In this document: piece by piece, positions 2,113 through 15,412 of the stretch | How positions within the stretch are numbered: position 1 is the first letter of the stretch | Layout of the letters: each line of letters begins with the position of its first letter | NCBI RefSeq assembly: GCF_019923725.1 | Contig: NZ_JAHXRI010000001.1 | Coordinates: 186,001 to 250,000, forward strand | Length of the DNA stretch: 64,000 nt | Reading direction: 5' to 3' | Origin: Zwartia hollandica | GTDB lineage: Bacteria; Pseudomonadota; Gammaproteobacteria; Burkholderiales; Burkholderiaceae_B | Notes under the pieces: model-generated | What the model saw: only the letters and a program-made list of their open reading frames with translations | Database searches by the model: none | What the model was told of the DNA's origin: nothing | Translations under genes and position numbers: made by a program

Positions 2113-2744
2113 TGAAGTATCCGAGACTGCACCAAGCGTGTTAGTGCCTCGCTCAGATCAGTGCGTATTTCGTCAATTGGTCGTGTCGAATCAATGACCG
2201 TGAATCGATTGGGCTGTTTGGAGGCCCGCTCTAAATACACCTGACGCGTGCGCAGAAAAAACGCGTCTGCCTCAGTCTCAAAACGGTCCTGGTCTCGCGT
2301 GCGATTCAGGCGTTCGCGGGCGACCTCCAGTGGAACATCAAACAACCAGGTCTTGTCAGGCTGCAAGGTCGGATGCACCCAATTCTGGAGAACTTCAATT
2401 CGAGCCGTCCCGAGCTCTCGACCCCCGCCCTGGTAGGCAAAGGTCGCATCCGTGAAGCGGTCGCAGACCACCCACGTTCCTGCCGCAAGCGCCGGCTCAA
2501 TCACTGTCCTGATATGTTCAGCGCGTGCCGCAAACATCAGCAAGGTCTCGCATTCAAGTGTCATTGGAGTGTGTAACAAAAGATCGCGGAGTCTCTCTCC
2601 GATGGGAGTCCCACCCGGCTCACGCGTGCAAAGCACGGGCTGGCCAAGTGAGCTGAGCATCTCAACAATCCATTGCACATGCGTACTCTTACCAGCACCA
2701 TCAACACCTTCGAGCGTTAAAAACAATCCGCGTGCGGGCATCAT
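2109..2744 (-). CDS. tmk: Thymidylate kinase
   Basis: Phosphorylates dTMP to dTDP using ATP in the cytoplasm, feeding dTTP synthesis. The 211-residue protein has the P-loop GVDGAGKST at residues 13-21, the nucleoside-binding DRFTDATFAYQGGGR segment, and a LID region with RTRDQDRFE. The length is typical. It overlaps mltG upstream and holB downstream by 4 bases each, forming a tightly coupled set. The start chosen begins MMPARG; the second Met two codons region is equally usable and changes nothing in the fold. Confidence 0.95.
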   Translation of the reverse strand: MMPARGLFLTLEGVDGAGKSTHVQWIVEMLSSLGQPVLCTREPGGTPIGERLRDLLLHTPMTLECETLLMFAARAEHIRTVIEPALAAGTWVVCDRFTDATFAYQGGGRELGTARIEVLQNWVHPTLQPDKTWLFDVPLEVARERLNRTRDQDRFETEADAFFLRTRQVYLERASKQPNRFTVIDSTRPIDEIRTDLSEALTRLVQSRILQ

Positions 2745-3772
2745 GGCTTGCGTCCCAAAATATATTGCGCCACGTTACGATTGTGCTCTGGCAACGTCTT
2801 AGCGAAGGCACTTGTCCCATCTCCCTTCGCTACAAAATACAGATAGTCATGCTTTTCAGGCTGCAATGCAGCCTGAAGGGAGGCAAGCCCTGTACTTGCA
2901 ATTGGCGTTGGCGGCAGTCCATTACGTGTGTATGTATTCCACGGCGTGTCGGTTTGAAGATCAACCTTACGTAACCTTCCTGTATAGGCCTCCCCCAAGC
3001 CATAAATGACCGTTGGGTCTGTCTGCAAAGGCATATTTAACCTGAGCCGATTTATAAAAACGCCAGCGATTCGTGCCCGATCCGACGCCTTACCCGTCTC
3101 TTTTTCTACAATCGAAGCAAGAATCAAGGCTTCATAGGGAGACCTAAGTGGGAGCCCTTCTTGTCGCACCTGCCAGGCCTTTTCTAAGACTCTCTGTTGT
3201 GTACGAGCTGCTCGCTCTACAATCTCTGTGTCGGGCGTACCAATCGAAAATATATATGTATCCGGAAACAACAAACCTTCGGGAGGATAGGATTTAAGCG
3301 CCGTTCCCCCTTGTATTAACCGTGGTACTTCTTGGTCCGTCCAAGGAGGATCGGATTTTTTTATATCCGGATTAGATAAAATGGCTGCTCGTACTTGCCT
3401 AAGCGTCCAGCCTTCCACGATTGTGATCTGCCGTGACGTGACTTCCCCAAGCGCGATACGACGCAGCACATCCCAGACGCTATCTCCACGGGCTATCTGA
3501 TAGCCACCCGCCTTAAGTTTCTTATCAAGCTCCGTGGCTCTGGCAAGCATCGCAAACGCGCCCGAATTAACCTGAACGCCAGCCTGGTTGAGTAGCCGCG
3601 CAATCGTTGCAGGCGTGGCACCCGCTGGGACTAGCAGATCTACCTTGGCGCTCGGTAGTTCCAGCGGGCGCGTGACCCACTGGTAACCCACTGCAGCTAC
3701 CGCGCCAAGCAGCACAACGATAGGCAATACCAGATAAAGGAGAAGTTTATTGAGCAGTTTCATGAGGTTCAC
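2741..3772 (-). CDS. mltG: Endolytic murein transglycosylase MltG
   Basis: A 343-residue YceG/MltG-type protein that cleaves nascent peptidoglycan strands at the inner membrane and is thought to terminate glycan chain growth. An N-terminal membrane anchor (LLNKLLLYLVLPIVVLLGA, residues 6-24) is followed by a LysM-like region and the catalytic domain, with the family segment ASIVEKETGKASDRARIAG containing the catalytic Glu. It is the first gene of the mltG-tmk-holB-tatD run and diverges from ygfZ across about 50 bases, where both promoters must lie. The stop overlaps the tmk start by 4 bases. Confidence 0.93.
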   Translation of the reverse strand: MNLMKLLNKLLLYLVLPIVVLLGAVAAVGYQWVTRPLELPSAKVDLLVPAGATPATIARLLNQAGVQVNSGAFAMLARATELDKKLKAGGYQIARGDSVWDVLRRIALGEVTSRQITIVEGWTLRQVRAAILSNPDIKKSDPPWTDQEVPRLIQGGTALKSYPPEGLLFPDTYIFSIGTPDTEIVERAARTQQRVLEKAWQVRQEGLPLRSPYEALILASIVEKETGKASDRARIAGVFINRLRLNMPLQTDPTVIYGLGEAYTGRLRKVDLQTDTPWNTYTRNGLPPTPIASTGLASLQAALQPEKHDYLYFVAKGDGTSAFAKTLPEHNRNVAQYILGRKP

Positions 3773-8187: not shown

Positions 8188-8538
8188 TCAGACAGTGCGA
8201 TCCGCTATTGGGACTCTATTTTTTGTTTGGCGTACCTTCTGACGATGTGCAGCGCGTCTACGGCGCGCCACCTTAGGCTCAACCACAAGCGCCCGATACA
8301 GTTCTACCCTGTCGCCATCGCTAAGCAGAGCGCAAAGATCGCACTTCACTCCAAAAATGCCAAATGTCACAGCCTCATCGACGAGCATACCAAACCCGGA
8401 GTGCTCTCGCGCCCTACTGAGTGCATCCTGCACTAGGGAGCCCTTGGCTAGCATTAACGTGACTTCTCGACATGATTGGGCCAGGGCGTAACACACGGTG
8501 ACCTGAATCAAGGTACCGGGTAGCGAGGGCAAGCTCAA
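8188..8538 (-). CDS. rnfH: RnfH family protein (ubiquitin-like beta-grasp, UPF0125)
   Basis: A small protein of about 116 residues with the RnfH/YfjF pattern: QVTVCYAL near the start, DEAVTFGIFGVK, DGDRVELYRALVVEPKVARRR, and a basic tail. Its biochemical role is not established; it is conserved beside ratA. I start it at TTG 8538, which overlaps the ratA stop as TTGA and has a GGAG ribosome-binding site seven bases upstream, a clear coupling signal. A GTG at 8556 is also in frame and would add six residues. The sequence is more divergent than usual in the middle, but the beta-grasp ends are recognisable. Confidence 0.8.
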   Translation of the reverse strand: MSLPSLPGTLIQVTVCYALAQSCREVTLMLAKGSLVQDALSRAREHSGFGMLVDEAVTFGIFGVKCDLCALLSDGDRVELYRALVVEPKVARRRRAAHRQKVRQTKNRVPIADRTV

Positions 8539-8975
8539 GAGCCATCTCCGTAGCACTGGGCTGCGCGTTGCGTGAAGGAATCGATGAAGCTTGTCGCGAT
8601 TCGATTAAAGACCGGCCCGACAACAACCTCAAGCGCTCGGCTAGAAAACTCATAACGCAAGGTAAACAACACCTTGCACGCATCCTCTGCCAAAGGCATA
8701 AATCTCCACTCGCCATCGAGCGCCGAAAACGGCCCTTTTACTAAGGACAACGCGATACGGCTGGGGAACTCGTGGGTATTGTTGGTTGTAAAGGTATGCT
8801 TAAGGCCGGCAATCGCGATCGTTATTGATGCCTGCACTCCAGACGCATCCTGCTTGTCGACAGAGGCGCCACCGCACCAAGGCATGAATTCTGGGTATTT
8901 TTGAACATCCGCAACTAAGTTAAACATCTGGCTTGCGCTGTGCGGAACCAAAACGGAGCGCTCGACTGTATGCAT
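8535..8975 (-). CDS. ratA: RatA/Coq10-family START-domain protein
   Basis: A 146-residue START-like lipid-binding protein of the Coq10/RatA family. The start MHTVERSVLVPHSASQMF and the segment DVQKYPEFMPWCGG are diagnostic. Family members are linked to ubiquinone binding; the E. coli protein was described as inhibiting 70S ribosome formation as part of a proposed toxin-antitoxin pair with RnfH, a role that is disputed. I chose the ATG at 8975, where family similarity begins; the open frame extends 27 codons further without resemblance. smpB, usually directly divergent from ratA, lies 6 kb away here. Confidence 0.88.
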   Translation of the reverse strand: MHTVERSVLVPHSASQMFNLVADVQKYPEFMPWCGGASVDKQDASGVQASITIAIAGLKHTFTTNNTHEFPSRIALSLVKGPFSALDGEWRFMPLAEDACKVLFTLRYEFSSRALEVVVGPVFNRIATSFIDSFTQRAAQCYGDGS

Positions 8976-9070: not shown

Positions 9071-10201
9071 ATGACTGTGCGCAACAACCGACGTTCCGGC
9101 ATCTTGCTTTCGGCTGCAATTGTGGCCCTCGGGTTATTAACCGGTTGTTCCATGAAGGACTGGCCAGCGTTTCTAGGCTTGATGGAGCAAGAGCACACAA
9201 ACCCAAGCGATGCAGGACCCTCAGCGCCAATCTGGCCAAGTATCACGCAGCACTATCGATTGCCAGCGATCAGTACACCAATCGTCGCACAGCAGGCCAA
9301 ACTCTACGCCTCGGGAGCCAATCATTTCCAAACGGTGCTTTCAAACGCGACACCCTACTTGTATTTCGTAGTGCAGGAGCTAAAGCGCCGAAACATGCCC
9401 GTTGAATTGGCGTTCCTTCCCATTATCGAGAGTAGCTATTCGCCAAGAACAAAAACGGGGCTCAACCCCGCTGGGCTCTGGGGCCTCATGCCGGTCGCGG
9501 CTAAACATTTGAACTTAGTGCGTGACGAATTTAAGGATGAACGCAGAGACATTATTCGTTCAACTCAAGCGGCACTGGACTTGCTGCAAGAGCTCCATAC
9601 CCAATTTGGCGATTGGAACTTAGCCTTGGCGGCTTACAACTGGGGGCCAGGCAATGTCACTCGTGCGCTTTCTAACAATGCAAAGCGTAAAGTACCCATA
9701 ACGTACGATCACTTGTCTATGCCTAGGGAAACACAAGTATTTGTACCTAAGCTGTTCGCAATTCGCGACATCATCGCACGCCCAGACCTCTACAAAATCG
9801 CCCTCCCTAATATCCCGGACGCTCCCTATTTTGAGGTGATATCTGTCGCGCAAACCATCGATATTCACATTGCCGCTGAATTAGCTGACATGACACTTCA
9901 GGACTTTGTAGACCTTAACCCTGCATTTAACAGACCAGTCATTGTTGGTGGCCCAACACAGACAATCCTTTTGCCGATCGATCAAGCAAAAAAATATCGA
10001 GCAAATTTGAACCTCCGAAAAGAGGCGCTGTCTGCGTTCACGTCAGTCGTACTTGAAACAGTGGAAACACCGGAAAGCCTAGCACGCACCTGGAAAGTTG
10101 ATGCAGCACGTGTCCGAGCGCTCAATCACTTACGTTGGGGTGTCCGCCTGAAGGTCGGCACCGTCGTTCTCTTGCCAATCCCAAGCGGACAACGCCCTTG
10201 A
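9071..10201 (+). CDS. mltD: Membrane-bound lytic transglycosylase D-like lipoprotein
   Basis: A 376-residue SLT-type lytic transglycosylase. A lipoprotein signal ends in the lipobox LLTGC with Cys26, so it is probably outer-membrane anchored. The catalytic Glu120 sits in FLPIIESSYSP, followed by GLWGLMPVAAKHL (the family's GLWQFMP) and AAYNWGPGNVTRAL. The C-terminal 60 residues (ETPESLARTWKVDAARVRAL to GTVVLLPIP) look like one LysM domain. It cleaves peptidoglycan to 1,6-anhydro products. A good AGAGG ribosome-binding site precedes the ATG. It is shorter than E. coli MltD, which has two LysM repeats. It lies between ratA and the O-acylation operon, convergent with the latter. Confidence 0.88.
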   Translation: MTVRNNRRSGILLSAAIVALGLLTGCSMKDWPAFLGLMEQEHTNPSDAGPSAPIWPSITQHYRLPAISTPIVAQQAKLYASGANHFQTVLSNATPYLYFVVQELKRRNMPVELAFLPIIESSYSPRTKTGLNPAGLWGLMPVAAKHLNLVRDEFKDERRDIIRSTQAALDLLQELHTQFGDWNLALAAYNWGPGNVTRALSNNAKRKVPITYDHLSMPRETQVFVPKLFAIRDIIARPDLYKIALPNIPDAPYFEVISVAQTIDIHIAAELADMTLQDFVDLNPAFNRPVIVGGPTQTILLPIDQAKKYRANLNLRKEALSAFTSVVLETVETPESLARTWKVDAARVRALNHLRWGVRLKVGTVVLLPIPSGQRP

Positions 10202-10209
10202 GCACACAC

Positions 10210-10233
10210 CATGCGCGGGACCACTCGCGCATG
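10210..10233. terminator. Possible weak hairpin between convergent genes
   Basis: An 8-base-pair inverted repeat (CATGCGCG, eight-base loop, CGCGCATG) sits in the 40-base gap between the mltD stop and the stop of the convergent SGNH hydrolase gene. No clean U-run follows on either strand, so termination activity is uncertain. Confidence 0.35.
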
Positions 10234-10241
10234 ATGTATGT

Positions 10242-11636
10242 TTATTGTGCGCGATTAAGCGACAGTACGTGCGGTGTCTTCCTCATCAAAATTGCGCGCG
10301 CATCGATCGCCGCATTCGTTGAATCCATCCATGACTGCATAAACGTTAAATAAGCGCTGTGCCCAACAACACCAAAATCCGGAAGATCTCGCATGCGATC
10401 ACCACGCGTTGCCGCGACGAGTAAGTCGCGCTTAACGATCATGTCGAAGAGACAATCGTAATCATTCACATACGAATAGCCCGTCTTCAAAGAGCAGGCC
10501 TCAAGGTCTTTTCGCGCTTGTGCACTAAGTGAAGCACGTGTTTCTGCCCCCTGCATGACATCCACACCACGCGCGAGCTCCTCGCCAGTGAAGCGGCCAA
10601 CCGACACACTGTCAAGCATGACGTGGTAACTCGCTTGTGCTTCTAGCCCACTCACACGCCAAACGAGCGACTTAAGAGCACTGAGTTCAGCACTTGCGAC
10701 CGATTTAACCTGAGCGTGGCTTAAAACAAAGGGGACCGGTGGTAGAGCCATACCAACGTCGACGGATACTCCCTTTCCTCGCGTTAAGGCAGTCTGAAAC
10801 TTAAGTGCTTTCTTTTCGTTTGCTCCGGCAGGGAGAAACTCTGTCTCAACAGTTCTGTCCGAAACATTGCTTTGAATCACAGCGGGCGCCAAGTTTGCTC
10901 CAATTTGCCTTAGAAACTCAACGGCCATCAAACCATGCCCTATGGCACTGGGGTGTATACGATCAGGGATCAATTTAATATCTTGAGACGACGCCGTAAG
11001 CGCTAGCGCGTTCTTTAACGTCTGATGCCACTGAACCTTCAGTACGTCTGCGCCAACTGCCTCAGCTTGCATCGCCGCAACAAGCCGTTCGAGCTGCCTT
11101 TGTCGGTCAATCAACTTTGATGGGGAGGCAACACCTGCGATATTCGCTGGACTCGGTTCGACCCAAATAATGCGCTTGACCCCCGCCTCACGAAGGCGCT
11201 CAATAATGGCTTGAACGTTCTTTATCAATGCAGCGTGCGGGCTGTTCAGAGGATACGCCGCATCATTCATTCCAAAATTAATCACAACAACGGTTGGACG
11301 ATGAACCAGTACGTCTCGATCTAATCGATTGAGACCATCGAACGCAGAATGTCCACCAATCCCCGCATTCACAAACGTCAAATCCAGGTCTGGCCGACGT
11401 AGCAAGAAAAAAGTTTCGATGTATCGCCCGTATGTGTATGCAGCGGTGATGCTGTCACCAAGCCAAACAATGCGATCCCCTTGGGAAAAAGCCAAGGGTT
11501 TGGTCTGAGCAATTGCAGTGGTCAACGGCACACACAACATCACACATACCATCAAAAACTGGCGTAAATTTCGAATGCGTTTCACCCTATTTTCTTCCAC
11601 CAGACCACACGGTCTTGTCACTCGATCTATCTTCAT
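10242..11636 (-). CDS. Periplasmic SGNH/GDSL hydrolase of an O-acylation operon
   Basis: A 464-residue exported protein. The signal peptide ends near TTAIAQ at residue 44. An SGNH hydrolase domain spans about residues 55-245 with all blocks: GDSIT (Ser62), the NAGIGG glycine, GMND (Asn124) and DRIHP (Asp225 and His228). It should be a periplasmic carbohydrate or acyl esterase, or an acyltransferase. The remaining 210 residues do not match anything I recognise and include two cysteines near DYDCLFDM. It is third in the MBOAT-AlgX-like-SGNH run, 24 bases after its neighbour. A role in moving acetyl groups onto or off an envelope polymer is inferred from this context. Confidence 0.82.
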   Translation of the reverse strand: MKIDRVTRPCGLVEENRVKRIRNLRQFLMVCVMLCVPLTTAIAQTKPLAFSQGDRIVWLGDSITAAYTYGRYIETFFLLRRPDLDLTFVNAGIGGHSAFDGLNRLDRDVLVHRPTVVVINFGMNDAAYPLNSPHAALIKNVQAIIERLREAGVKRIIWVEPSPANIAGVASPSKLIDRQRQLERLVAAMQAEAVGADVLKVQWHQTLKNALALTASSQDIKLIPDRIHPSAIGHGLMAVEFLRQIGANLAPAVIQSNVSDRTVETEFLPAGANEKKALKFQTALTRGKGVSVDVGMALPPVPFVLSHAQVKSVASAELSALKSLVWRVSGLEAQASYHVMLDSVSVGRFTGEELARGVDVMQGAETRASLSAQARKDLEACSLKTGYSYVNDYDCLFDMIVKRDLLVAATRGDRMRDLPDFGVVGHSAYLTFMQSWMDSTNAAIDARAILMRKTPHVLSLNRAQ

Positions 11637-11660
11637 GGTTCACTCCTAGAGCCAAAAGGG

Positions 11661-13310
11661 TCATTGACTAGGTGCGCTATTACTTTTTGCTGCTGCCGCT
11701 GCAGCCTCTTCCTGTCTGATGCGCCGCTTCTCTGCCTCGGTTTGCCATGCAGTGCTTGTACCACGAGCAACTTGACGCATACGCTCTTGATGAGCACCTG
11801 AATTAGCGGTAATCGTCGCGTTAACAAAAACCAAATCCGTGACCCCAAAGGTCTTGACAATATCCTGGATATTGCGGAACACATAGCGATAGTCGACAAC
11901 GACAACCTTATCGAAATGCGGCAACAGGTAGGGTGCAAAGGCATTGCCATAAGAGTTCTTGACCACAAGTGCCGTTCTACCCGTTCCGGCGCTTGTCGTG
12001 CCAACCAACAGCGGCACATCTCCGCCAAGAAATACGATATACCCACGGCTCTTCTCTGCGAAGAACTCGTGCGGCGCAGGCGTCTTTTGCTCCGGACCAA
12101 CATATTGAGTGCTCTTAACAGTCACCGTTGTTGGCACGTAGTAGTCAGAGACCTTATCGGCTTGTCTGAGCTCGGGCGCTTGGGTCAGACTCCAAAATGA
12201 CCCTGCGACTCCTGCAACCGAGCGCTTATCGAACGCGGAAAGCTCAAGTGGCGTAAGCCCCATCACTTGAGCCCACGCACGATAGGCATAATAGGCGCCC
12301 AGTCCAGTCCAGTGATGATCAGACTTGAAAAACATGGGTTCGGACGTATGGTCTTGCATTTCGGTGATGACATCGGCAAAGCGTACTTCAGGGTTCAGCG
12401 CTAACTTCATTGCCTCTAAGTTGCGCGCCTCCGAGGTCGTGCGCGCTCGCGCCGCTGCAGGCAGATAAAAATGGCTGCTTGTCGGAGTCACAACAACACT
12501 GACACTTTGCATATTATTTGGCTTCGCGACCTGGTCCACCCACGTGTTCACCGCATTCGCATAGCCTTGTGCAGACTTGTCTGTGCCCCCAAACATAAAC
12601 AACGCCTGTCCCTCGTGTAGTAATACGCCTCCCACCACATTCAGTGGCTTGTTGCTGGGTGCCGCAGCCTGAGCTGTCAAGCTAGGCGGGGCGGTCTCCC
12701 GCGAGCGTGCCACTTCGGGTGAGGTCGACTGAGGAACCGCATTGACTTGTGGGGCCGTCTCTTGGGCACTAAGCGTGTCGCTCTTCTGTACACCTGTCGC
12801 TCCCTCAGCGCGCTCTAGGGGCTCAGGGGAAGCATTAGACTCACGATCAAGCCCTGGGGTAACCAGTGCGATCTCGGCTTCTGCCCCAACTTCTTTAGGC
12901 GATTCGTCCTGATCGGTACCGGTCTTAGGCTTAGCCCAGCTGTTTATATCCTCAAAGCCGGTATCACCACCCTTCACTTGGACAATGCGACCATCTAGCG
13001 TCAGACCGCGGTTGGTCCGCACGAAGCTCGCAACCTGGGTGAAGTACTCACGAAGGGGGAAATGATCGGCCACATACGACTCAATGCCGCGAGCAAAGCT
13101 TCCGTCTAACAAATTTTCTTGCGTCAGCTCTGGCCATGGGGCCAGCCGACGATTCTCAGTCTCGGAAACAGCTTGCCGAGACTCGTATTGCGCAAGAAAA
13201 ATGACACCTAGCGAAGAAAGCAAAAGAAAAATCAAAAGTGCGTGCAGAATCCGTGCCGACCGACTTGCATGCGGATAGTGAACACCCGAGGCTTGTGTTG
13301 ATTTTTCCAT
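11661..13310 (-). CDS. AlgX/AlgJ- or DHHW-type O-acetyltransferase protein
   Basis: A 549-residue protein with one N-terminal membrane segment (residues 21-40) and a periplasmic SGNH-like domain of the AlgX/AlgJ superfamily. The hallmark KSDHHWT lies at residues 329-335, and the likely nucleophile Ser453 in VVKNSYGNAF. Such proteins receive acetyl groups brought across the membrane by an MBOAT partner and place them on a polymer. Residues about 128-222 are a Pro/Ala/Glu/Ser-rich low-complexity insert, and the last 20 residues are Ala/Gln-rich. The ATG at 13310 overlaps the MBOAT stop as TGATG, so I prefer it to a longer open frame upstream. The polymer acted on is unknown. Confidence 0.84.
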   Translation of the reverse strand: MEKSTQASGVHYPHASRSARILHALLIFLLLSSLGVIFLAQYESRQAVSETENRRLAPWPELTQENLLDGSFARGIESYVADHFPLREYFTQVASFVRTNRGLTLDGRIVQVKGGDTGFEDINSWAKPKTGTDQDESPKEVGAEAEIALVTPGLDRESNASPEPLERAEGATGVQKSDTLSAQETAPQVNAVPQSTSPEVARSRETAPPSLTAQAAAPSNKPLNVVGGVLLHEGQALFMFGGTDKSAQGYANAVNTWVDQVAKPNNMQSVSVVVTPTSSHFYLPAAARARTTSEARNLEAMKLALNPEVRFADVITEMQDHTSEPMFFKSDHHWTGLGAYYAYRAWAQVMGLTPLELSAFDKRSVAGVAGSFWSLTQAPELRQADKVSDYYVPTTVTVKSTQYVGPEQKTPAPHEFFAEKSRGYIVFLGGDVPLLVGTTSAGTGRTALVVKNSYGNAFAPYLLPHFDKVVVVDYRYVFRNIQDIVKTFGVTDLVFVNATITANSGAHQERMRQVARGTSTAWQTEAEKRRIRQEEAAAAAAKSNSAPSQ

Positions 13311-14773
13311 CAAAAACGAAAGTATAAAAACGGGTTGTAACTTTGACCGACTAGCAAGGCGGTACAGGAAAGCAACATGACCAAGTCGACAGCTAAGATT
13401 GCGATCGGTCTCCAACTAACAAGTGACCGCACGATGTCCAAACGCACGAGAATGGACGACGACCAAGGCGCGACGGGTGTGCACGCAACCAATGCCAGCG
13501 GTAGCCAGAGCGCGTGCGCCTGGATATCAGTGAAAGTTTGCTCACCAAACAATGGTGCCTCGGTAAAGCCAAACAAAATCATCGAAAACAGTTTCAGTTG
13601 CTGCAAATCTGTGAAGTAAAAGAGTGCCCATCCCAGCGTGACGATGAGTAGTAAATATAGGTGCCCGAACAGTCCTGGGAGCCTGGCGAGCAAATTGCCC
13701 AAAAAGAGACGCTCGATCGCGATCCAAACGCCAAAATAGAGCCCCCAAAGCATAAAGTTCCAACTCGGACCATGCCAAAAGCCGGTTAACGCCCAAACAA
13801 TAAACAAGTTTCTATAAGGCCAACGTGCTCGCCCTCCCAAGGGGATATAGACATAGTCTCGAAAAAACGTACTGAGCGAAATATGCCAACGTCGCCAGAA
13901 TTCGGTGACCGATTTGGAAATATAGGGATAGTTAAAGTTCTCGTGAAAATGGAAGCCGAACATCATTCCCAAGCCGATAGCCATGTCTGAATACGCAGAG
14001 AAATCAAAGTAGATCTGCAACGCAAACATAGCCAAACCCAACCAAGCGTCACCGGTAGACAACGTTGACAGGTCCCCTCCCATGGTCCGCTCGGCCCACT
14101 CGCCAGCGACGTTGGCAATGAATACTTTCTTGAATAGCCCGACACACAGGCGATGTAAACCCCGGCTAAACAAATCCCAGGAGTGCCTACGTCCGCGGAT
14201 CTCCGCTGCGATATGAACATACCGCACGATTGGACCCGCAACCAGCTGAGGGAAGAGGCTTACAAAAAGCAAGAAATCGGTGAACCTACGCTGCGCACGG
14301 ACATCTCCACGATAGACATCGATCGAATAAGACAGCGTTTGAAAAACATAAAACGAAATTCCGATCGGCAATGCATAGCCAGGCAAATTGAACGAAGCGC
14401 CAAAAGAAGTGTTGACGTTCTCGACCACAAAATCACTGTACTTAAAGACACCCAACAACGACAGATTTGAAACAAGAGAAAGGGCTAATGCAAGTTTCGG
14501 GCCATTTGTGCCACGCGTGCGCTCCATCCACAATGCCGCCAGCCAATCAATCGCTGCGGTGAGTACCAACAAAGACACCCAAATCGGCTCGCCCCAAGCA
14601 TAAAAAAATAGACTGACTGCGATCAGGATATAGTTTTGCGCTTCGGTTGGGGCACCGGTATCTGTGGTTCCATCCGCGCCAACGCCATGACGAAACTTTG
14701 AGCCAAAAAAATAATAAAGGATCAAACTGCAGGGTAGAAACAGATACAGAAATACCAAAGAGGAGAAAACCAT
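13310..14773 (-). CDS. MBOAT-family O-acyltransferase (AlgI/PatA-like)
   Basis: A 487-residue polytopic inner-membrane protein of the membrane-bound O-acyltransferase family, AlgI branch. Conserved segments are GISFYVFQTLSYSIDVYRG, EFWRRWHISLSTFFRDYVYI (His297) and ALTGFWHGPSWNF with the catalytic His334. AlgI-type proteins move acetyl groups from a cytoplasmic donor across the membrane to periplasmic partners. It is the first gene of a three-gene operon with the DHHW/AlgX-like and SGNH proteins, and diverges from smpB across 180 bases. No polysaccharide synthase genes adjoin, so alginate or cellulose as acceptor is not supported; peptidoglycan or another envelope glycan is possible. Confidence 0.9.
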   Translation of the reverse strand: MVFSSLVFLYLFLPCSLILYYFFGSKFRHGVGADGTTDTGAPTEAQNYILIAVSLFFYAWGEPIWVSLLVLTAAIDWLAALWMERTRGTNGPKLALALSLVSNLSLLGVFKYSDFVVENVNTSFGASFNLPGYALPIGISFYVFQTLSYSIDVYRGDVRAQRRFTDFLLFVSLFPQLVAGPIVRYVHIAAEIRGRRHSWDLFSRGLHRLCVGLFKKVFIANVAGEWAERTMGGDLSTLSTGDAWLGLAMFALQIYFDFSAYSDMAIGLGMMFGFHFHENFNYPYISKSVTEFWRRWHISLSTFFRDYVYIPLGGRARWPYRNLFIVWALTGFWHGPSWNFMLWGLYFGVWIAIERLFLGNLLARLPGLFGHLYLLLIVTLGWALFYFTDLQQLKLFSMILFGFTEAPLFGEQTFTDIQAHALWLPLALVACTPVAPWSSSILVRLDIVRSLVSWRPIAILAVDLVMLLSCTALLVGQSYNPFLYFRF

Positions 14774-14953: not shown

Positions 14954-15412
14954 ATGAGCATCATCGAAAACCGCAAAGCGTTCCATGATTTTTTGATAGA
15001 AGAACGCTTTGAAGCAGGCTTAGTCCTGCAGGGGTGGGAGGTCAAGGCCATCCGCGAGGGGCGAGCGCAACTTAAGGAAAGCTATGTTGTGATTTTAGAG
15101 GGTGAGCTTTGGCTGTTGGGTATGCATATTAGCCCCCTCCACTCGGCCTCTACACACGTTCTACCGAACTCCACCCGCACCCGCAAGCTGCTGCTCAAGG
15201 CGGAGGAGATCAGCAAACTGATCGGCAAGGTAGAGCAGCGAGGTTACGCCCTTGTGCCGATTAATTTACATTATAAAAATGGTCGGATTAAGCTCGATTT
15301 TGGACTAGGAAAAGGCAAGAAACTGCACGACAAACGCGATGCGTCTCAAGAGAAAGACTGGGCTCGCGAGAAAGAACGCCTCATGAAACATGACACCCGG
15401 AACCGGGACTAG
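14954..15412 (+). CDS. smpB: SsrA-binding protein SmpB
   Basis: Binds tmRNA and brings it to stalled ribosomes for trans-translation. The 152-residue protein shows the family pattern: [54 protein letters not shown] and the basic tail [19 protein letters not shown]. The length is typical. No ssrA gene was seen in the window. It is followed by a strong hairpin terminator shared with the convergent ppsA. In related genomes smpB is usually head-to-head with ratA. Confidence 0.97.

Follow-up and report, generated by a model that had tools for sequence, protein, structure and literature searches.

The PatA/PatB/Ape1 systems of Gram-negative peptidoglycan O-acetylation (OAP systems) and the partnership of LtgA with Ape1 are already known (PMC12148441; PMC7083599). 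In the patA-patB-ape1 loci of Neisseria and Campylobacter, an MBOAT protein with an FXYXXF tail is followed by a periplasmic transferase of the SGNH superfamily and by an SGNH/GDSL hydrolase, and in species with Ape1a the order is pat-ape2(patB)-ape1a (PMC1199599). The tyrosine of the FXYXXF motif is auto-acetylated in PatA (PMC12148441). In Neisseria the lytic transglycosylase (LT) LtgA binds Ape1, and the two stimulate each other (PMC7083599). Here we describe a four-gene insert between ratA and smpB in a 64,000-nucleotide stretch of the Zwartia hollandica genome (contig NZ_JAHXRI010000001.1, positions 186,001 to 250,000; called the window, with positions counted from its first nucleotide). 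We think it somewhat probable that the four genes are a module for peptidoglycan O-acetylation, de-O-acetylation and cleavage, which works like the OAP system.

The insert and its borders are made up as follows:

8535-8975, minus strand: ratA (Pfam Polyketide_cyc (RatA)), the left border of the insert by comparison with relatives
9071-10201, plus strand: paralogue of MltD-type LTs, predicted lipoprotein (Pfam SLT 3e-21; alignment; tree)
10210-10233, plus strand: hairpin, possible terminator, between the convergent LT and SGNH stops (consensus scan)
10242-11636, minus strand: SGNH/GDSL hydrolase, putative O-acetyl esterase (Pfam Lipase_GDSL_2 6.5e-19; alignment)
11661-13310, minus strand: predicted O-acetyltransferase of the DHHW family, PatB1-type (Pfam DHHW 3.4e-40; PDB 4nzk, 5v8d; alignment)
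13310-14773, minus strand: predicted MBOAT O-acyltransferase (Pfam MBOAT 8.7e-21; DltB structures by sequence; alignment; tree)
14954-15412, plus strand: smpB (Pfam SmpB), the right border of the insert by comparison with relatives

A previous sequence-only reading had described a minus-strand run of the MBOAT, DHHW and SGNH genes with the first two coupled by TGATG, and the gene coordinates agree: TGATG is the overlap of the MBOAT stop with the DHHW start, the DHHW and SGNH genes are 24 bp apart, and the SGNH and LT genes are convergent with 40 bp between them.

The gene order and the three protein classes of the run match those of patA-patB-ape1, and, as with LtgA and Ape1 (PMC7083599), an LT appears as a candidate functional partner. 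Unlike in the OAP system, the transferase of the module is a DHHW protein and not a DUF459/PatB protein, the third gene in the window is not Ape1-like, and the locus itself includes an MltD-type paralogue. As the comparisons with PatB and Ape1 came out negative, we class the module as an OAP-like variant and not as a member of the OAP family.

The module also shares features with other acetylation systems. Like PatA1-PatB1 of Bacillus cereus, it combines an MBOAT protein with a DHHW transferase carrying the K-x-S, DXRY and DHHW motifs, but its host is Gram-negative, eight insert rows have KNS instead of KDS, and an SGNH hydrolase and an LT stand alongside. In the clostridial ccsZABHI locus, proposed to make acetylated cellulose, the MBOAT gene likewise adjoins a DHHW gene; that locus includes a cellulose synthase and a cellulase (PMC7710045), neither of which is found beside the insert. 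The pairing of an MBOAT protein with an SGNH-superfamily transferase is also the logic of WssH-WssI in cellulose acetylation and AlgI-AlgX/AlgJ in alginate acetylation. The module differs from these by its DHHW partner, by having no synthase beside it and by an MBOAT protein outside the cellulose-context clade (AlgI was not part of the comparison).

To follow the insert across relatives, each of the six genes from ratA to smpB was searched in 101 genomes, namely 32 of the genus (the window's own genome included), 29 of the family and 40 of the order; below, G, C and L numbers denote genomes, contigs and loci. The insert is carried by 11 of the 32 genus genomes, complete in eight and cut by contig ends in three (G010, G015, G020). 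In all eight complete inserts ratA and smpB are head-to-head, 5.9-6.3 kb apart, and the order of the four enclosed genes is the same. In 18 genus genomes ratA and smpB overlap or lie no more than 23 bp apart, which leaves room for none of the four genes, and in the remaining three (G008, G012, G027) the site was unreadable and counted as such. Outside the genus, 28 of the 29 family genomes have ratA and smpB head-to-head with a gap below 500 bp, and the last one has them in tandem. The head-to-head pair with such a gap is also present in 34 of the 40 order genomes; of the remaining six, two lack a match, two have the genes on different contigs and two have them far apart. The earlier claims that ratA and smpB are normally head-to-head and that the four genes are an added module are thus both supported, and the proposed check of whether the genes enter and leave together found all four in every complete insert.

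A tree built from smpB, ratA and partial ppsA places the carriers in two well-supported clades, and a single origin of the insert is not rejected (p-AU 0.27). This tree has 30 rows, the MBOAT tree 40 and the LT tree 27, all hand-chosen. A scan of genome contigs with the SGNH sequence found three genus loci and one weak match in Clostridiales.

The MBOAT protein matches DltB structures by sequence. Its H297, H334 and tail tyrosine Y484 (F-L/I-YFRF) are invariant in 11 aligned rows, and the C-terminus in the window, FLYFRF, fits the FXYXXF acyl-shuttle motif. The 11 module MBOATs form one clade outside the ten cellulose-context MBOATs, with 100/100 support for each group. They are also apart from the PatA-like MBOATs, and the deep branches are long. 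A partial MBOAT from G020 and a cellulose-context MBOAT from G018, cut by a contig end, were left out of this tree. Since the tree separates the module from both the cellulose-context and the PatA-like groups, it names no polymer.

The DHHW protein consists of an N-terminal hydrophobic helix, a variable low-complexity linker and an SGNH-like domain. The sequence-only reading had called it DHHW/AlgX-like, of which DHHW is the better name (Pfam 3.4e-40) and AlgX the poorer one (ALGX only 3.3e-8). By sequence, the solved structures closest to it are 4nzk, a DHHW protein, and 5v8d, which is B. cereus PatB1. The family blocks are given as KDS, DXRY and TDHHW (PMC9487903); here they read KNS (K451-N-S453), DYRY (D473-Y-R475-Y476) and SDHHW (with D331-H-H333-W334), with differences at the central position of block I and the opening residue of block V. 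The serine, histidine, aspartate and arginine are invariant in nine rows, with KNS in the eight insert rows and KDS in the row from G017. DUF459 gave no match to this protein at E up to 1 in Pfam, and no PatB structure is among its 11 PDB profile matches at E up to 10. The AlphaFold model is poor (mean pLDDT 53.6), and its Foldseek matches (4nzk, PatB1, then AlgJ) add nothing to what the sequence shows.

A search with the DHHW profile over 398 genomes of the phylum at 1e-8 found only the window's own genome, although the low-complexity linker may have hurt this search, and Pfam DHHW over 369 genomes of the class at 1e-5 found one, again the window's own. Both samples were drawn evenly, and how many other genus members they include is not apparent. 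G035, one of the 101 relatives, also came up in a protein search, with a protein that matches both DHHW and ALGX. It lies in one run (L113:3093-7599) with an MBOAT gene and an AT3-SGNH fusion gene. A 2022 review counts 766 members of the DHHW family, and the 56 PatB1 homologues that it cites all come from Bacilli and Clostridia (PMC9487903).

In the SGNH protein the predicted catalytic set of GDS (S62), N124 and D225-x-x-H228 is invariant in eight orthologues, while the C-terminal part matches no assigned domain. The closest PDB sequence is 7br2, no Ape1 structure was found with its profile at E up to 0.001, and its DUF459 match (E 0.076) is below the Pfam cut-off. The AlphaFold model is poor here as well (mean pLDDT 51.7).

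The LT has the lipobox LLTGC, kept in eight of nine rows, and E120, which we take to be the catalytic residue, is invariant in all nine. Like MltD it combines an SLT domain, a lipoprotein signal and a weak LysM match (0.13, sub-threshold in Pfam). Against the NCBIfam model PRK10783 for MltD it scores 210 bits, below the cut-off of 508, and can therefore be called no more than MltD-like; the model was run on the module LT and not on the canonical-type copies. In the LT tree the nine module LTs share a clade (96/95), and 13 canonical-type rows share a second. Both kinds occur in the window's genome, where the canonical-type copy on G000:C22 is 38% identical to the module LT. The neighbour, described earlier as MltD-like, is thus a second paralogue apart from the canonical MltD group.

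Peptidoglycan as the polymer is favoured by four observations: an Ape1 homologue in the window's genome, the single MBOAT of that genome, the arrangement in G017 and the PatA-PatB genes of non-carriers. The Ape1 homologue (488 amino acids) is encoded outside the window at G000:C2:122637-124103 (L160:14638-16104). Its residues 98-443 match 4k3u/4k7j (phmmer E 2.3e-22), of which 4K7J is NmApe (PMC6174289). As the window's genome has only one MBOAT, the module would be the simplest source of a substrate for this Ape1 homologue, with an AT3-type enzyme as the other candidate. Some kilobases from the Ape1 homologue there are large open reading frames (ORFs) (C2 about 108-117 kb), which by eye have the look of a defence cluster.

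The genome G017 has a diverged MBOAT gene (55%) and DHHW gene (30% over the alignment), followed by an Ape1 homologue that runs to the contig end. A second contig begins in the same Ape1 gene at matching residues and bears a convergent LT of the module paralogue group; the genome's own ratA-smpB site is empty. Compared with the OAP system, this cluster has the pat-patB-ape1 order with a DHHW gene in the place of patB, and compared with the window, it has the same arrangement with Ape1 in the place of the SGNH protein. With the G017 Ape1 counterpart as query, four of 399 order genomes match at 1e-6, the window's own with 76% identity and the others with 26-28%.

A PatA-like MBOAT gene followed by a PatB-type gene is present in ten genus members that lack the insert. 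The PatB-type gene is complete in five (G006, G009, G017, G027, G030; loci L163, L165, L166, L167, L174) and truncated by the end of a contig in five more (G004, G005, G012, G018, G024; loci L124, L125, L162, L164, L173). The PatB-type gene of G027, the one tested, matches NgPatB (7tjb) with E 6e-36, and DUF459 was found in both PatB-type genes tested (G027, G030). An Ape-like SGNH gene follows as the third gene in four of these genomes (G006, G009, G017, G027); it is not downstream in G030, and in the five truncated copies the contig stops before it. In all 11 carriers of the insert, the only MBOAT match is that of the module. The contrast between insert and PatA-PatB has a Fisher p of 0.006, uncorrected for kinship or incomplete genomes, and neither system was found in 11 genus genomes. 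It looks as if either system can serve, the module in the carriers and PatA-PatB in the others.

From the gene content, conserved residues, co-inheritance and Ape1 homologue seen here, we infer the activities, the polymer and the acetylation site of the following scheme. The MBOAT protein would move acetyl from cytoplasmic acetyl-CoA onto its own Y484 in the FLYFRF tail. The membrane-anchored DHHW protein would accept it on S453 and hand it to a hydroxyl of the peptidoglycan glycan, where it would block LTs. The SGNH protein, together with the unlinked Ape1 homologue in the window's genome, would remove the acetyl group, and the dedicated lipoprotein paralogue of MltD would cleave where it is gone.

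Several points weigh against this scheme. The SGNH protein is not Ape1-like, with 22% identity over 157 amino acids to the genome's own Ape1 homologue (BLASTP E 0.011). An AT3-like ORF, seen by eye in an O-antigen-type region of the same genome, is a possible other source of acetylation. The G017 assembly has 83% completeness and 7% contamination, and the cluster in it is split over two contigs; because of the contamination, the organism that owns the cluster is uncertain. The Fisher p overstates the contrast with PatA-PatB, which runs along clades and includes carriers with incomplete genomes (65-86% for G020, G022 and G025). G001, G003 and G007 each have a relative of the module LT by itself (L109:5000-6103, L110:5381-6442, L111:3723-4820), with no MBOAT partner within the stretch covered. 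Lastly, the described relatives of the transferase point to other polymers: B. cereus PatB1 acetylates a secondary cell-wall polysaccharide, on N-acetylglucosamine (GlcNAc), and gave no O-acetylated peptidoglycan (PMC9487903), and the conserved clostridial pair of MBOAT and DHHW proteins was proposed to acetylate cellulose (PMC7710045). The earlier proposal of a peptidoglycan acetylation set therefore gains from the Ape1 homologue and the G017 arrangement and loses from a transferase that is PatB1-like instead of PatB-like and from the non-Ape1 hydrolase, with peptidoglycan still the presumed polymer.

The substrate of PatB1 lends weight to a different, though rather unlikely, explanation, in which the glycan acetylated by the MBOAT and DHHW proteins would be a different one of the envelope: O-antigen, capsule or a polysaccharide bound to the wall. 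The SGNH protein would then trim this glycan, and the LT would make room for it in the peptidoglycan. The window's genome has eight GT2-type matches, six of them over the cut-off. By eye, these include regions of O-antigen type (C22, about 460-545 kb) and, on C23 at about 492-497 kb, a capsule-type export cluster. This explanation leaves the genome's Ape1 homologue and the G017 cluster unexplained. Moreover, the sequence-only reading had noted the lack of polysaccharide synthase or export genes nearby, and this is confirmed for the flanks of the insert, where Pfam found none among ten proteins, nine of which have families (the remainder of the window was inspected by N-termini only); the lipid A genes lpxA and lpxB are among these flanking genes. 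A co-conserved polysaccharide synthase elsewhere in the genome had been named earlier as a counter-argument; this was checked in part, through one capsule-type export protein, which has strong matches in four of 32 genus genomes and two of the 11 carriers, and a link of the insert to this exporter was rejected on that count. The capsule-type export genes (L149; C23 about 490-509 kb of the window's genome) adjoin a very long ORF with the look of a polyketide synthase by eye, in a stretch that is partly masked.

A more speculative variant, which we hold to be improbable, keeps peptidoglycan as the polymer. In this variant the DHHW transferase may mark a position other than C6 of N-acetylmuramic acid (MurNAc), for instance GlcNAc, as PatB1 does on GlcNAc-MurNAc. 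A non-Ape1 esterase would then erase the mark and the MltD-type paralogue would read it, making the insert one write-erase-cut kit in the place of PatA-PatB.

It is also quite improbable that a three-gene acetylation operon and an independent, unrelated LT both landed between ratA and smpB. The LT does lie on the opposite strand with its own start region, and the solitary LTs of G001, G003 and G007 fit such a history. However, the LT and the acetylation genes are kept together in eight of eight complete inserts, the nine module LTs form one clade (96/95), and G017 has a related LT, convergent with the Ape1 homologue, at a place away from ratA-smpB. That the MBOAT protein is part of a system for cellulose or alginate acetylation, as its superfamily, the cellulose-context MBOATs of other genus members and the clostridial MBOAT-DHHW loci (PMC7710045) might suggest, is very improbable given a clade separate from the ten cellulose-context MBOATs (labelled by eye), a DHHW partner where the cellulose-context locus L118 has an AlgX-family one, and no synthase beside the insert. 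Membership of the cellulose-context clade was rejected on the MBOAT tree, which answers the cellulose side of the phylogenetic check proposed earlier; for the alginate side the tree holds no AlgI. Cellulose-type acetylation clusters were seen by eye in several genus members (L118-L123), the MBOAT partner in L118 being assigned to the AlgX family by Pfam.

If the module acts on peptidoglycan as proposed, DHHW transferases would enter the Gram-negative envelope, and peptidoglycan O-acetylation would prove to be something that different components can reconstitute. This locus links acetylation genetically to deacetylation and to cleavage of the glycan, which fits the idea that acetylation gates LTs. 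One genus holds carriers of the insert, carriers of PatA-PatB and members in which neither was found, which allows closely related bacteria to be compared for effects on the wall. A four-gene module of this kind was not found in the literature searched by titles and abstract beginnings, with subscription papers mostly outside that search.

The borders of the insert show no transposon-type flanking direct repeats, one 35-nt pair (71%, 6.1 kb apart) being taken as chance. There is no tRNA in the window, the base composition of the insert region is ordinary, and promoter-like sites are no more frequent than in shuffles. The hairpin at 10210-10233 has ten pairs; seven such sites were seen in the region against 8.8 expected from shuffles. 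The rnfH gene was confirmed by Pfam as a member of the Ub-RnfH family. A second peptidoglycan-cleaving gene of the window, an mltG-like gene (Pfam YceG), lies at 2741-3772 in housekeeping surroundings.

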